Virus record (IMG/VR): IMGVR_UViG_3300032893_000309
Span: 1 to 20,087 of that record
DNA length: 20,087 nt
Source: a virus
Direction: 5' to 3' (one strand)
Positions 2,181-11,009 of this stretch are shown here, piece after piece. The notes under the pieces are model-generated. The model had not been told where the DNA came from. It made no database searches and saw nothing but the letters and a program-made list of their open reading frames with translations. Both the position numbers and the translations under genes were made by a program. The stretch's first letter is position 1, and the number at the start of each line of letters is the position of its first letter.

Positions 2181-2576
2181 TTATGTTGAATCGCGCACGT
2201 AGTGCGTATGCCACACGTAATCGAATGCCTCGATTTCATCTGCAACGTCGTCAATCTGGATGGCTTCGATGGCAGATTGTGCTTCATCATCTGTGAAAAC
2301 TGGTACACCACGATGGTCTCCGGTTATCCCCACCGATGCAGTTCGCCACGCCGCTTTGAGTTGTGCCCGTGCAATCGGCTTACTAAGATAAGTCCGAAGA
2401 TTACCACGGCTAGGATCAAAGCTACCAATCGAAACAAGTGCAGCCAAAATGCCTTCCTGTGCCAAATCTTCATAGTCCTCCTCGTCCAGACGTGTAGGTA
2501 ACCTACCGTCCCGTCGTAATGCCGCCAGCACGGCAACTGATAGCTTATGTAGTAATGCTGGGTCAACATCAGTCAT
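2181..2576 (-). CDS. Sigma-factor region-2-like protein (131 aa)
   Basis: Residues about 34-78 resemble sigma70 region 2: DYEDLAQEGILAALVSIGSF, then DPSRGNLRTYLSKPIARA, parallel to the sigma70 pattern of DLxQEG followed by FDxxRG.xFxTYA...R. That region binds the core polymerase clamp and the -10 element. Region 4 is missing: after residue 80 the sequence is acidic and ends at 131. The start at 2576 was chosen over 2609 because AAAGGAG lies 7 bases before this ATG. It may be a phage sigma-like or anti-host transcription regulator, or a region-2 mimic that sequesters core polymerase. The region-2 likeness is by eye. Confidence 0.6.
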   Translation of the reverse strand: MTDVDPALLHKLSVAVLAALRRDGRLPTRLDEEDYEDLAQEGILAALVSIGSFDPSRGNLRTYLSKPIARAQLKAAWRTASVGITGDHRGVPVFTDDEAQSAIEAIQIDDVADEIEAFDYVWHTHYVRDST

Positions 2577-2782
2577 TAGGATTCTCCTTTCAAATTCAAT
2601 CGAGGGCACTCCATGAGTATGCCGCTAGTCGCAAACAGCGTAACGCCGCGATCTTTAAGTCTACAACACTAACGCGATAATAATTGCGCTAGCTTTCGGT
2701 CCATAGTTTATAAGCTAGGAACCTATTGTATGCAGACCGTCGTTTTACTGCTCGGCACACTCAGGGAATGCCCTCTGTTGAA
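2577..2782. other. Intergenic stretch, no gene recognised
   Basis: About 200 bp between the sigma-like gene and the 35-aa membrane peptide. The only minus-strand reading frame with an ATG is 11 codons long and has no ribosome binding site. The ribosome binding site of the sigma-like gene is at its left end. No convincing promoter or terminator was found. Confidence 0.5.
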
Positions 2783-2890
2783 TCACCTGAAGAACCATGC
2801 AATCAGCCAAAAGTAAGCACAGGCAATGATAGCGGTGATTACCCAGCCTAACGCATGATACACAGGCTCAGTGTCAAGGCATTTGAACAT
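2783..2890 (-). CDS. Single-span membrane micropeptide (35 aa)
   Basis: The peptide begins MFKCLDTEPVYHALGWV, has one hydrophobic span (about residues 14-34, rich in Ile, Ala, Trp and Phe) and ends in Arg just before the stop. Its ATG shares one base with the stop of the glutamine amidotransferase gene (TGATG), so translation is probably coupled. The size and topology fit an accessory membrane anchor or regulator. Being co-translated with the amidotransferase and amidoligase, it might place them at the membrane; that is inference only. Confidence 0.55.
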   Translation of the reverse strand: MFKCLDTEPVYHALGWVITAIIACAYFWLIAWFFR

Positions 2891-4164
2891 CACTTTTCAC
2901 TCACTCTGGGAAGATAGATCACCTTGCCATCAACAGCGCGCACAATCCTATGCGCTCCGGCCCTTTCCGCGAGCCACCGTTGTACTTCTGAGGCGTTATC
3001 AACCTCAAGCTCTGCGAGGCATTCACGGCAATCTTCCCAATTGTCGTTTCCATGCTCGCAAACCGACGTAGAAGGCTTAGGAGCGGGTTTCTCTTCAGGG
3101 TGCTCCCCAACCTCCAATGTAGGCCCGGACGGCATGGCGGGCTTTTCCGGGGCTTTGGCGGCCTCTCTCGTGGCCTGTTCCCGGTAGTACCGCTCTAGCC
3201 GATCCTCGGGGCACCAGCAAGGTAAGAACCCTTGCGGAGGGTCTTTCTTAAAGCGCAGGCACAACGGGCATTTCCTTGTGTCATTCTCCGTTGTCGGTCT
3301 CGAAGTCTCATCAATCCGCTGTTGCTGCACTTGCCTCTCAGCATCGCGTTGCTTATAGACTTCTCTCATGTCAATAAGTTCGCCTTTCTCTACCTTAAGT
3401 TTCTGGAATGTCATCCCTTCCCAGAAACCGTAAGAGTTATGCTGATAGCTCCAGATTATTGACGTGCCATAAGGGCCGCCGTAATCACTGGCGCGTGTGC
3501 TCGTCGGAAGGTAGCTCTGCCCACCAGTCGGGAATATACCCGTAGAGCGATTGTAGTAGCCGCCCGTCGTATACCTTTGACTCGCCGGGCGCATGCGAGT
3601 AGGAACAAAATGAAAGCCTGTCTTCATGGAGCTTGGCAGACTGTACTGGTTGCTATACCAAATTCCGTCAATCGTAATGCCCTCGTCGGCGTTCAGAGTG
3701 ACGAACTTTCCGCCCTCATACATGACAATGCCCTTGTTAGAGCGTCCCATATCGGAGCAGATTTTGTTCCAATACTCCAAGTCATCGTTTGTGCTTGGCG
3801 CGTCAATGAGTTTGTTTACATAAAGCAGCGTATCGGATGCATCCTCGTCTGCATCCTTTGCCGTGCTTCCGATGACGCCATTATGCATCATCCAAGCTTC
3901 CACGTTCGGTAGCTTGAATGGATGACACAAGGCCAAGCCTCTCGCGCCATGCGTTGCAAAGCGCCAATGAACAGCATGGGACAAGCCTTCCTTGGCAAGC
4001 CCCGCGATGTACACGCGGGCACGCTTCAATTGCTTGTTTCCGTAGAACTTCTCGACGCCTTGCGCGGACATGACGCCAATGCCATCAGGGTTCACCCGAT
4101 TTGCATTGTCAATCACTTCGCGTGTCAGGCTTTTGCCTTTCGGCACGTAAGCGATAAGACACAT
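2890..4164 (-). CDS. Class II glutamine amidotransferase-like protein (Ntn hydrolase)
   Basis: Predicted to release ammonia from glutamine for the amidoligase encoded just upstream. The start at 4164 places Cys at residue 2 (MCLIAYVPKG), the N-terminal nucleophile of this family after Met removal; AAGGAG sits about 8 bases before it, and the upstream stop is one base away. Further family features are NPDGIG (25-30), HWRFATHG (66-73), WMMHNG (91-96) and SDT (110-112). The glutaminase-like domain spans about 1-200. The rest (to 424) is Gly/Tyr/Ser-rich, then charged, with two Cys clusters (299, 302, 316, 318 and 369, 379, 382) that look like zinc sites. No synthetase domain is fused. It could be another Ntn amidohydrolase, but the neighbour favours a glutaminase role. 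Confidence 0.85.
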   Translation of the reverse strand: MCLIAYVPKGKSLTREVIDNANRVNPDGIGVMSAQGVEKFYGNKQLKRARVYIAGLAKEGLSHAVHWRFATHGARGLALCHPFKLPNVEAWMMHNGVIGSTAKDADEDASDTLLYVNKLIDAPSTNDDLEYWNKICSDMGRSNKGIVMYEGGKFVTLNADEGITIDGIWYSNQYSLPSSMKTGFHFVPTRMRPASQRYTTGGYYNRSTGIFPTGGQSYLPTSTRASDYGGPYGTSIIWSYQHNSYGFWEGMTFQKLKVEKGELIDMREVYKQRDAERQVQQQRIDETSRPTTENDTRKCPLCLRFKKDPPQGFLPCWCPEDRLERYYREQATREAAKAPEKPAMPSGPTLEVGEHPEEKPAPKPSTSVCEHGNDNWEDCRECLAELEVDNASEVQRWLAERAGAHRIVRAVDGKVIYLPRVSEK

Positions 4165-4165
4165 A

Positions 4166-5896
4166 TCAGATGTCTCCTTCGGTTGGTTCACATAACACAT
4201 GTCCGGGGATATCTCCCCAATCACGTCCTAACGCTCGCGCCTTTTGCGCTGCACGAGCGAATGCCTTCGTCGGCTGATATTCTTCCTTGATAAACTTCAC
4301 AAGATGCGGATACAGTCCTTTGTTATCGTATATCCATTCAACCATAGCGGCAGGATCGTGCATCTTCTGGATGCTCTGCTCAAGTGCATAGATGCACAAG
4401 GCTTCGGCAAACTCCAGATTTTTCATCACGCGCTCATACCGCAGATTGCCACGGAATATACGCAACTCGGCCGTTCCTTTGTTCTTAGACGTACTCAGCG
4501 CGCCATGTGCCTCGTCACGAATAAGCTTGCCGCCATCGGCAACTTTCTTCACGTAACGATGGCAATACTGCGCTTCACTGCGCTGCGCAATGGTAACGAT
4601 TAGCTGCTGCATTTCTGGAGCATTGACTGCTACCAACATCTTGCCAAGCTGCAAGCTTGACAATGCACGGCGATTGATATGGATATGCATTCCACACTGG
4701 CGCGTATTCTGTCCTGACTGCGCTACTTTACGTAACTCACCAAGGATCGCTGTCCATTGAACATACTTATCCGATTTGTGATCGGCAAGCGTGTATGGCA
4801 ACGTAATCATTTCCACGCCATTGCTTCCTAAGCTGCTATCCGCACACAGAATGTACGGACGCCCAGCTACCCATTTGCCGCCTAAAGCAGCAACTACGTG
4901 TCCAAGGTTATGCTTAGGATTCGATTGCATTTCCAACTCTACGCCAAAGCAAAGCGAGTCCTTTTTAGTCACAGCCGGAAAGCCGTGCATCTTTATCACG
5001 TTAGTTCCGTAGGAAAAGACTGGTGTACTTGACGCATGCCGCGACAGCACAAGCTGCTGATACGTGGCGTCTGCATTGTACAGAACTGCATCGGCCTCAG
5101 CCTCAGTCATGAACCAATATTCAGGTCCTTGGAACCAATGCCGTTGCGCATACATCGCTGAAGCATACACGCGCTGTCCATTACGCATTGCCCACACAGA
5201 ATCATTGTGCCGGATATATCCGCCATCTGTCTCTGTCGCATTGATGAAGTATTCGTCAATGCAGCTACGGCATACCCTACCGTTGCGTACTGTATCTCGC
5301 ATAGCAGTCGCCGCTACGCTTTCTCCGCAGCTTGGGCACTCTACGCGAGCAGGCATTGCGTCGTGCTTAGCCTTGAGTTTGGCAAAGCAAGCCATGCACA
5401 GATGTCCTTTCGGGTGTCCTACCGTGCCGGCAAATGCCATGAATGGCGTATTTGCTGGGATAGTTCTGTTCGGTGCCGCATAAGTTTGACAACGATACCC
5501 TGCACATCCATGTTGACGGCTGAGCGGATTCTCCCACTGCGCTTGCAAATAATTTCCAGGCTGAAAATTATTGTCTCGCTTGGTGATGATGTTATCTGGC
5601 GCATCATCATAGTTGGCATCCTCGGCATCAGCCGAGAATAGCTCCGGGGCAATCTCTTGCAAATTCGGAGCGCCGAAATAGCTATGCGCGCAGTCGAGGC
5701 ACAGGACATATGCTGGTGTTGCCCAGCATGCCCTATGCTGCGGAGTGCGGCAGCTTCCGCACTCTCCACCGTTGACAAACGGTATGACAAAGAACCGCAT
5801 GTTAGTAGCTTGCGCGTCTTGCACGCGGAGACGCTGGGGAGGGCTTTGCCAGTGTCGCCCCTCTTGGCGTCGTTCAGGTTCCCATACACAAGGCAT
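4166..5896 (-). CDS. Zinc-ribbon amidoligase (COOH-NH2 ligase, GS-like fold)
   Basis: Predicted to activate a carboxylate with ATP and join it to an amine or ammonia. The C-terminal part (about 312-510) has the signature of the glutamine-synthetase-like amidoligase family: FGVELEM (317-323), ADSSLGSNGVEMITLP (352-367), CGMHIHINRR (401-410) and AELRIFRGNL (476-485). The conserved acids and His (E320, E322, E362, H404, H406, E477, R479) are all present. The N-terminal half has several Cys pairs (46/49, 66/69; 131/136; 167/170; 187/190, 209/212), probably zinc ribbons that select the target. AAAGGAGG precedes the ATG by 7 bases. The next gene is a class II glutaminase. The substrate is unknown: cell-wall peptide, protein or small molecule are all possible. 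Confidence 0.85.
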   Translation of the reverse strand: MPCVWEPERRQEGRHWQSPPQRLRVQDAQATNMRFFVIPFVNGGECGSCRTPQHRACWATPAYVLCLDCAHSYFGAPNLQEIAPELFSADAEDANYDDAPDNIITKRDNNFQPGNYLQAQWENPLSRQHGCAGYRCQTYAAPNRTIPANTPFMAFAGTVGHPKGHLCMACFAKLKAKHDAMPARVECPSCGESVAATAMRDTVRNGRVCRSCIDEYFINATETDGGYIRHNDSVWAMRNGQRVYASAMYAQRHWFQGPEYWFMTEAEADAVLYNADATYQQLVLSRHASSTPVFSYGTNVIKMHGFPAVTKKDSLCFGVELEMQSNPKHNLGHVVAALGGKWVAGRPYILCADSSLGSNGVEMITLPYTLADHKSDKYVQWTAILGELRKVAQSGQNTRQCGMHIHINRRALSSLQLGKMLVAVNAPEMQQLIVTIAQRSEAQYCHRYVKKVADGGKLIRDEAHGALSTSKNKGTAELRIFRGNLRYERVMKNLEFAEALCIYALEQSIQKMHDPAAMVEWIYDNKGLYPHLVKFIKEEYQPTKAFARAAQKARALGRDWGDIPGHVLCEPTEGDI

Positions 5897-5926: not shown

Positions 5927-5953
5927 TACGGCACTCGTGAACTGAATGCCGTA
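5927..5953 (-). terminator. Weak terminator or attenuator hairpin before amidoligase
   Basis: On the minus strand, TACGGCA and TGCCGTA make a 7-bp stem with a 13-nt loop, followed by TTTTGAATAATT. It lies in the 98-bp gap between the 91-aa gene and the amidoligase, about 20 bases before the amidoligase ribosome binding site. A second small stem (GGTAG/CTACC, about 5974-5989) precedes it. It could partly terminate transcription and so set the level of the amidoligase and amidotransferase. Confidence 0.4.
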
Positions 5954-6839: not shown

Positions 6840-6988
6840 TAACCTCGACCATCCGGGCAATCGGCACCATGCTGCGGACATGTATGTCGCACACGATGAC
6901 GGCATGTCCAGAACCCCATCGCAAGTTGAATGGCATAGACTAACTCACGCCATTCAATAATGTCACGTAATCCATTTTTAATATCCAT
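6839..6988 (-). CDS. Small Cys/His protein (49 aa)
   Basis: It starts MDIKNGLRDIIEWRELVYAI and ends in a Cys/His cluster (CRHRVRHTCPQHGADC) that fits a compact zinc site. The start overlaps the end of the upstream gene by 11 bp and AGGG lies about 11 bases before it. Its stop shares a base with the next start (TAATG). This double coupling is the main support, since the reading is short. Function unknown. Confidence 0.5.
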   Translation of the reverse strand: MDIKNGLRDIIEWRELVYAIQLAMGFWTCRHRVRHTCPQHGADCPDGRG

Positions 6989-7175
6989 GGTCATATATCC
7001 CTGTAGCTGTGGCAGCGTCGGTCATTTCATATCGAGACCGAATCCTAATCTGTTGCGACTGTCGATTGTGCCTCTTAAGCTCATCGACAATATCATCCGG
7101 GTATGTGCTGCCATTGTGCCGCTTGAGATAGCGGGCACGCGCTTTGTCTTTCGACGTTGAGCGTTTGTTAGCCAT
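6978..7175 (-). CDS. Small basic hypothetical protein (65 aa)
   Basis: It begins MANKRSTSKDKARARYLKRH. The N-terminal 45 residues are rich in Lys and Arg, so nucleic-acid binding is plausible, but no fold was recognised. The ATG at 7175 was preferred over the one at 7181 because GGAG is 8 bases from it and only 2 from the other. It is the first gene after the 310-bp repeat-rich gap, so it probably leads the coupled micro-gene chain that ends in the amidoligase unit. Confidence 0.6.
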   Translation of the reverse strand: MANKRSTSKDKARARYLKRHNGSTYPDDIVDELKRHNRQSQQIRIRSRYEMTDAATATGIYDHGY

Positions 7176-7469: not shown

Positions 7470-7493
7470 GCGCTGTTCGCTTTGCGAACTAGC
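7470..7493. repeat. Conserved hairpin, copy C, at the JAMM gene stop
   Basis: GTTCGC and GCGAAC pair around a TTT loop. Its right flank CTAGC contains the stop codon of the JAMM gene (TAG on the minus strand), so the hairpin begins right at the 3' end of that mRNA. Confidence 0.65.
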
Positions 7494-7890
7494 GGAGCGA
7501 AAAACCATCGGCATGAAAGCCGACAACTATACGCTGTGGAACTGCGACAATGAACATTGGCACATGCATACGCTGTGCTAATGCCACGTCACTGATTGAT
7601 AGCCTGTCTGCCGTCTCAATCGTGGCAGGGTACAAGCCGGGATGCGTATGCCACAAGGCAGCAAGTGTAGCGCCGACAGGCAACGCGACTCGATAATCAA
7701 TCTCGTACGTTTGCCTCTGAGTCACAGGCAATGTGTAGCAAAACTTACCGTCCTTGGAGTAGATAGCGCCACCAACCTCGTACTGTTCAGTCATCGACAA
7801 GGCTGCGCGCGCTGCTGCCATCATGGCAGGACGCATGGCATTAAAGCATGCTGCTGCGTCAATCGGTCCAGATACAGGTAACACAGACAT
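7489..7890 (-). CDS. JAMM/JAB metallopeptidase-like protein (DUF4329-like)
   Basis: A 133-aa protein with a full JAMM motif: E38 in YEVGGAIYSKDGK, H81 and H83 in WHTHPG, and S98-x-x-D101 in RLSISD. This zinc site cleaves isopeptide or peptide bonds in JAB/MPN proteins, and the pattern of GGAIY, then PVGATLAALWHTHP, then SxxD is close to the DUF4329 group. The start at 7890 has GGAG 8 bases upstream; the longer reading from 7941 has none. It is in the same leftward unit as the amidoligase, about 1.6 kb upstream. It may remove a modification, process a phage protein or act in host interference. Confidence 0.7.
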   Translation of the reverse strand: MSVLPVSGPIDAAACFNAMRPAMMAAARAALSMTEQYEVGGAIYSKDGKFCYTLPVTQRQTYEIDYRVALPVGATLAALWHTHPGLYPATIETADRLSISDVALAQRMHVPMFIVAVPQRIVVGFHADGFSLR

Positions 7891-7968
7891 GACACATACT
7901 CCGCTAGTCAACGAATAGGGGCAGGGTACGGGGCGCGCCATTGTGGCAGCATGCCCCGGCCCTGCGAT

Positions 7969-10080: not shown

Positions 10081-10482
10081 ATGACTGATTCGGCTCATAG
10101 CTCCCATACCCGGAGTGGTACTGGTCTTAAGGCCCAGACCCCGGATGCTCTGAACGATATCCCCGTGTCTCTGGACCCGAATATTTCCGGGACTGCCCCT
10201 ACCGAGGATACGTACACTTGGCAGGCGGGAAAGATGTCCGCTTGGGCCGAGAACGATGATTACCGGCATTTCTTCGAGGCTAATAACGTAGCCGAGAGCC
10301 GGACTACCCATCAGTATGATACCGTCCATGACGGGGACTATGACGACAATGGAGGGCATCCTACGGGCATTGGGCATGTCCGGGGTATTCATGGGCCTGT
10401 AGAGTCTGGGACTGGGGAGCCGACCCTTCCTAGCGGGCATAGCCCATTTGCCATCAGCCCGGTTATCCGTGGGAGATTGTAA
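10081..10482 (+). CDS. His-containing hypothetical protein, first late gene (133 aa)
   Basis: It begins MTDSAHSSHTRSGTGLKAQT and has nine His, many Asp, Gly and Ser, and no membrane span. The start at 10081 is preferred over 10021 because AGGA precedes it and the extra N-terminus falls in the hairpin leader. The fold looks loose and Gly/Pro-rich (GGHPTGIGHVRGIHGPVESG). It is probably a virion or assembly protein because of its place at the head of the structural unit. No family recognised. Confidence 0.6.
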   Translation: MTDSAHSSHTRSGTGLKAQTPDALNDIPVSLDPNISGTAPTEDTYTWQAGKMSAWAENDDYRHFFEANNVAESRTTHQYDTVHDGDYDDNGGHPTGIGHVRGIHGPVESGTGEPTLPSGHSPFAISPVIRGRL

Positions 10483-10523: not shown

Positions 10524-11009
10524 ATGCCACTGGAGTCGGGATCATCCCAGAAGGTTATCTCGCACAACATCTCTGAGTTGACCCATCATGGGTCTAGGCC
10601 ACGGAGCCATGAGCAGATCGTGGCTATCGCTCTCAGCAACGCACGCAAGACGGGACATATGAGCCATCAGCAGAACGATACGCTCCATGAGCACGCCCAC
10701 AAGGTCGATGACCATGGACACAAGGGGTCACATCAGCATGACCATGTGATTTTGCATAATGCACATCCTCATGCACATCCTACCCATCCGCACATCAACC
10801 GCAGTGATGGGGATGTTAACCCGAATGCCAAGGATCATATGGCCATCCCCCATGCTGGTGGGACAGAGCATGTGATCCGTGGATCAGTCCCCCATCATAC
10901 ATACAAGCACTTTGTCCATGACCGTAGGGACAAAGGGCCGGAACATCATCCCCCGCAGGGATTGATGAATCATCAGTCTGCATCAGCAGACAACTCTGGA
11001 AACCTATAG
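10524..11009 (+). CDS. Histidine-rich protein with conserved phage N-terminus (161 aa)
   Basis: About 30 of 161 residues are His, in runs such as HEHAHK, HNAHPHAHPTHPH and HHTYKHFVH. The first 45 residues (MPLESGSSQKVISHNISELT, then RPRSHEQIVAIALSNARKTG) match a small-protein type common beside phage structural genes, with an ordered helix that ends at the His-rich tail. GGAG is 7 bases before the ATG. The tail could bind Zn, Ni, Fe or other metals in the virion or be a pH-sensing linker. The N-terminal type is recognised by eye only. Confidence 0.65.
   Translation: MPLESGSSQKVISHNISELTHHGSRPRSHEQIVAIALSNARKTGHMSHQQNDTLHEHAHKVDDHGHKGSHQHDHVILHNAHPHAHPTHPHINRSDGDVNPNAKDHMAIPHAGGTEHVIRGSVPHHTYKHFVHDRRDKGPEHHPPQGLMNHQSASADNSGNL

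Follow-up and report, generated by a model that had tools for sequence, protein, structure and literature searches.

A compact amidoligase and class II glutaminase gene pair in a divergent phage: predicted chemistry and candidate roles

The window analyzed here is a 20,087-base virus record from IMG/VR, and all of its features are given in window coordinates. It encodes an amidoligase-like protein, a glutaminase-like protein and a short membrane peptide in direct succession (Table 1). This raises the question of which reaction the two enzymes perform together, on what they act, and whether the peptide belongs to them. A sequence-only reading had proposed an ATP-dependent amide-forming machine which takes ammonia from glutamine and is perhaps held near the membrane. 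The coordinates, motifs, one-base gap and TGATG junction named there were all confirmed. Phages are known to carry such enzyme pairs (Iyer 2009 as cited in PMC10580990; PMC5498523), and the pair in our window is of this known kind, in a new and divergent phage.

The stop codon TGA of the amidoligase gene (4168-4166) is followed by a single T and then by the glutaminase ATG (4164), and the sequence TGATG (2892-2888) is common to the glutaminase stop and the start of the membrane peptide. A ribosome-binding site (AAGGAGGG) precedes the amidoligase ATG and AAGGAG lies upstream of the glutaminase ATG; in both enzyme genes the site is purine-rich and spaced as expected. The hairpin just upstream suggests that the pair either opens its own transcription unit or is located behind a leaky terminator. 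This interpretation of the sequence is tentative, because the consensus scan found 12 terminators in total, which is not clearly above shuffles (mean 8.9, sd 4.1).

Table 1. Features of the amidoligase/glutaminase locus in window coordinates.
Feature	Coordinates	Strand	Description
Amidoligase, 576 aa	5896-4166	-	Amidoligase_2 protein, Cys-rich motifs upstream of the catalytic domain
Class II (Ntn) glutamine amidotransferase, 424 aa	4164-2890	-	Start MCLIAYVP
Single-pass membrane peptide, 35 aa	2890-2783	-	ATG overlaps the glutaminase stop (TGATG)
Terminator-like hairpin	5927-5953	-	Found by consensus scan; 10-pair stem, T-rich tail; just upstream of the amidoligase gene

The enzyme genes share the minus strand of the left part of the window with a Toprim primase-like gene and a gene whose product has sigma-70 region 2, and the plus strand of the right part carries genes for terminase, portal and major head protein. 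TerL and portal were less than 60% identical to everything compared, and no host was inferred. Three further open reading frames were noted. The sigma-70-related protein (142 aa, 2181-2609, minus strand) contains region 2 only (37 bits), and its gene overlaps an ORF for a short membrane protein (2324-2569) that is read in a different frame. A 150-aa protein encoded on the strand of the enzyme pair (7489-7941, minus) matches DUF4329 with 34.6 bits and has an HTHPG plus SxxD pattern that recalls JAB/JAMM metallopeptidases; it was absent in the 10 related records searched. A His-rich open frame of 161 aa (10524-11009, plus), close to where the plus-strand genes begin, has no Pfam match.

The family identity of the amidoligase, for which the sequence-only reading had proposed a Pfam profile search, was borne out by this search: Amidoligase_2 (PF12224) matched with 29 bits at a cut-off of 22. 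PHROG 16683 matched the same protein (3e-20). An AlphaFold2 model based on 22 sequences is mostly of high confidence for residues ~311-549, and in fold comparisons this part matched YbdK with Z 11.6 and 11.4, glutamine synthetases with Z ~10, and PafA/Dop with Z ~9. By its predicted structure, it is a COOH-NH2 ligase domain of the glutamine-synthetase/GCS fold. Among 29 aligned relatives, E320, E322, D353, S355, E362, H404, H406, R439, T475, E477, and R479 are invariant in all that cover these positions. This set includes acidic metal ligands, acidic residues of the ATP site, the HxH and TxExR motifs, and the His/Arg set. The protein probably is an ATP-driven amide-bond former.

Ahead of the ligase domain, CxxC motifs are located at positions 46, 66, 167, 187, and 209, and two or more such motifs precede the catalytic domain in 25 of the 29 aligned amidoligases. 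The earlier label of a zinc-ribbon protein is firmer than these motifs allow. As the Cys-rich N-terminal region is modelled with a pLDDT below 50, zinc binding is read from the motifs only, and the segments are termed probably zinc-binding here. The amidoligases of L006 and L007, the two with no glutaminase in their vicinity, also lack CxxC motifs before the catalytic domain. This relation between the motifs and a glutaminase neighbor is only suggestive, because the amidoligase of another locus (L044) has no motifs and yet is accompanied by a glutaminase.

The assignment of the second enzyme to the class II glutaminases was supported as well. On its own, the protein remained below the Pfam cut-off (GATase_6, 16.8 versus 27 bits), as did several of its relatives, but a profile built from 21 relatives matched the solved structures of GlmS (1xff, E 8e-7) and PurF (E 1e-6). 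EgtC was not among the structure matches of this family profile up to E 0.1. Since the protein starts with MCLIAYVP, Cys2 is the predicted nucleophile directly behind the initiator Met. NPDGIG, HWRFATHG, and HNG are present as well. C2, H66, R68, N95, and G96 are conserved in 34 out of 34 aligned relatives and D111 in 33; the glutamine-binding Arg (R68), the oxyanion Asn-Gly (N95-G96), and the amine-binding Asp (D111) are all kept. Thus, the catalytic residues of both enzymes align with their families, as had been anticipated. Residues 1-180 were modelled with block means of pLDDT between 80 and 97, most of them exceeding 90, and residues 2-184 matched EgtC (Z 12.7) and GlmS (Z 12.5) equally well, so that each of the two enzymes has the expected predicted fold. 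The C-terminal part from about residue 190 contains two CxxC motifs (299 and 379) and has no confident model. Sequence and model together assign the protein to the class II (Ntn) glutamine amidotransferases, and it probably splits glutamine.

Three independent searches supplied the relatives, namely with the glutaminase against annotated phages, with the glutaminase against IMG/VR, and with a DNA motif of the amidoligase alone against IMG/VR. Only the last set, comprising 34 loci, is a fair test of coupling. In all 34, a profile match identifies an amidoligase. The contig ends beside the ligase in six loci, which were left out of the count; in the remaining 28 a glutaminase adjoins the amidoligase on the same strand in every case. 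The coupling suggested by the sequence-only reading is therefore near-obligate in viruses. In these loci the two genes mostly overlap by 10 bases. Because the glutaminases of all IMG/VR loci form seven clusters at 50% identity, these pairs do not represent one phage sampled repeatedly. With the glutaminase as starting point, an amidoligase was found nearby in MW202733, MEP401, MEP402, Marvin, C75C1, a Christensenellales phage, StenR_269, phiM6, RHph_N3_19, and an Acinetobacter phage, and by weak profile matches only in Bifidobacterium phages. IMG/VR scans with either window protein as single query yielded no relatives. A search with the exact amidoligase motif gave 34 real viral loci but only one match among 84,980 species genomes of bacteria and archaea, a comparison which covers this exact motif only. 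The single match, in a Bdellovibrionales MAG, was rejected as a chance hit, being located in an unrelated reading frame without a profile match.

Some loci deviated from the simple arrangement. In L021, a partial tandem duplication has left a second, truncated copy of the glutaminase C-terminus (4656-5063) beside an additional primase-like gene. The Acinetobacter phage vB_AciJM_313 (PX050566.1, L034) has three amidoligase places, two of which have identical scores and are located near both genome ends; these perhaps are terminal repeats. On the human faecal contig MT839723 (L039, 4161-6163), a Cys-rich amidoligase is encoded beside a PurF-like glutaminase. This short contig also carries an Lgt-like gene and is perhaps bacterial, not phage.

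The pair occurs in a compact and in a larger form. The nearest kin, two IMG/VR records (L061, IMGVR_UViG_3300032009_000044; L051, 3300031831_000157), share the gene order of the window, the CxxC pair before the ligase domain, and the presence of a short membrane peptide behind the glutaminase. Between L061 and the window, the ligases are 46% identical over 254 aa and the glutaminases 52% over 180 aa, in each case within the catalytic part. In contrast to the window, the proteins of both records are shorter and the glutaminase is devoid of the Cys-rich C-terminal extension. The podovirus MW202733 (Manatee Spring), the Methylophilales phages MEP401 and MEP402, and the Mycobacterium phage Marvin likewise have an adjacent CxxC-bearing amidoligase and class II glutaminase, but identity is only ~20-26%, the hosts are different, and the N-terminal regions vary in length and content. 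With the models used, no gamma-glutamyl cyclotransferase (GGCT) or ATP-grasp partner was found in the 20-kb window or in these four phages, and the second ligase, COOH-NH2_lig (PF14395), was not found in the window or in the three phages tested (MW202733, MEP401, and Marvin). As the records of all four phages were deposited as complete and hold the pair without a GGCT or ATP-grasp partner, ligase and glutaminase constitute the core. The window is a 20-kb fragment, and other cassette genes may be missing from it for that reason.

In StenR_269, phiM6, and RHph_N3_19 the pair is part of a larger cluster that includes genes for gamma-glutamyl cyclotransferase and ATP-grasp, and a gamma-glutamyl cyclotransferase is also encoded in L021. 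In C75C1 (L008, 4001-4897) one fusion protein combines the glutaminase domain with that of a gamma-glutamyl cyclotransferase (PF06094, 76.8 bits) and is annotated only as the latter. According to the citation in PMC10580990, Iyer 2009 described cassettes of amidoligase, glutamine amidotransferase, GGCT, and ATP-grasp, which also appear in PMC5498523. Going by such citations in later papers, the description of the pair of amidoligase and glutamine amidotransferase dates back to 2009, and annotations in many phages have followed. The phiEco32/LUZ24/RIO-1-type peptidoglycan modification cassettes resemble the window in having Amidoligase_2 and a class II glutaminase in the phage early region (PMC5498523; PMC3890496), but comprise larger gene sets including GGCT, ATP-grasp, and the second ligase, none of which was found in the 20-kb window. 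The compact form with Cys-rich motifs may be new to the literature as such, but its published examples, Marvin and MEP401, are known phages. EgtA/EgtC, GlmS/PurF, YbdK, and PafA/Dop share folds and the catalytic residue pattern of both domains with the window pair, but these are cellular enzymes with a known substrate and only ~8-17% identity over the aligned part.

Glutamine-dependent, ATP-driven amidation of a carboxylate by a two-enzyme phage module is the best explanation of these data, and we consider it somewhat better than an even guess. The pair would be expressed from the early/metabolic strand of the phage. The class II glutaminase would split glutamine by means of its N-terminal Cys nucleophile, the amidoligase of the glutamine-synthetase fold would activate a carboxylate with ATP and metal, and the ammonia released, presumably passed from glutaminase to ligase, would amidate the activated carboxylate. 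The Cys-rich segments before the ligase domain and at the glutaminase C-terminus are likely docking or substrate-recognition parts. The family profile of the glutaminase argues for this chemistry in favoring GlmS and PurF, which are ammonia donors. Two fold comparisons argue against it: the glutaminase ties with EgtC, a gamma-glutamyl hydrolase transferring no ammonia, and the best match of the ligase, YbdK, is a gamma-glutamyl ligase.

In ergothioneine biosynthesis, a gamma-glutamyl bond is made by EgtA and later hydrolyzed by EgtC. The main rival to amidation follows this scheme. The amidoligase would link an amine to glutamate or to a different carboxylate; later, the gamma-glutamyl group would be taken off by the Ntn enzyme, without any ammonia transfer. 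Both closest folds are in line with it, YbdK being ahead of glutamine synthetase by about 1 Z unit, and so are the gamma-glutamyl cyclotransferases added in StenR_269, phiM6, RHph_N3_19, and L021 as well as the fusion in C75C1. However, the Z values tie with GlmS and nearly so with glutamine synthetase and do not separate the two readings, the sequence profile points to GlmS and PurF, and several complete genomes hold the pair without GGCT. We regard this ligase/hydrolase chemistry as rather unlikely. Compatible with either chemistry, and concerning target and role only, is a function within a peptidoglycan-modifying cassette, in which altered cross-bridge or stem-peptide linkages would block superinfecting phages. 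This has been put forward repeatedly as a proposal for these genes in phiEco32/RIO-1/LUZ24-like phages (PMC5498523, PMC10580990, PMC11945000), and the larger cassettes contain the same enzyme families. The cell-wall target comes from these proposals only, and no experimental test of the reaction or target of the phage pair was found in the literature searched. Furthermore, the compact form is devoid of the other cassette members, and the Cys-rich modules show no obvious wall-binding feature. A role at the cell wall is possible for the window pair, though less likely than not.

We attach little weight to a three-component system in which the 35-aa peptide would hold the enzymes at the membrane. 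The peptide was correctly recognized at TGATG and has a 19-residue hydropathy maximum of 2.10. Translational coupling at this junction would fit an anchor, as would the nearest kin: a 44-aa membrane peptide is encoded ~60 bases downstream of the glutaminase in L061 and L051, and its changes by codon position (7/5/14) identify it as a real gene by their third-position bias. However, this gene does not overlap the glutaminase gene, its product is not similar in sequence to the window peptide above shuffles (p ~0.19), and in most other loci a short membrane ORF is missing behind the glutaminase, only the nearest kin clearly having one. Moreover, several other short membrane ORFs are located on the same strand in the window. 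Not being conserved, the peptide was rejected as a core component of the system; it may be an accessory. Similarly improbable is a virus-specific, self-contained and zinc-guided amidation machine, in which Cys-rich modules would guide both enzymes to a protein of host or phage, or to a nucleic acid, for amidation of its carboxylates early in infection. If true, this would be a modification not yet known in phages. A defence system was rejected, since neither protein had a PADLOC match at E up to 0.01; NCBIfam gave no match for the window proteins either. DNA hypermodification, as with the class II glutaminase of Gat-QueC, was set aside, since neither QueC nor another such partner was seen.

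Pairs of amidoligase and glutaminase are widespread among tailed phages whose hosts differ greatly, and the compact two-gene form with its conserved catalytic residues offers the simplest start for finding reaction and target. Knowing them would tell whether the substrate amidated in phage infection is the cell wall, a host protein or a small molecule.

A repeated leader of 27 bases (like CTCACTCACACGGAGCACACGACAATG) was observed in L061 at 6978-7004, 7590-7616, and 10313-10339, and a similar sequence occurs in L051. In several L061 genes its end coincides with the start codon, among them the gene of the membrane peptide that follows the glutaminase.
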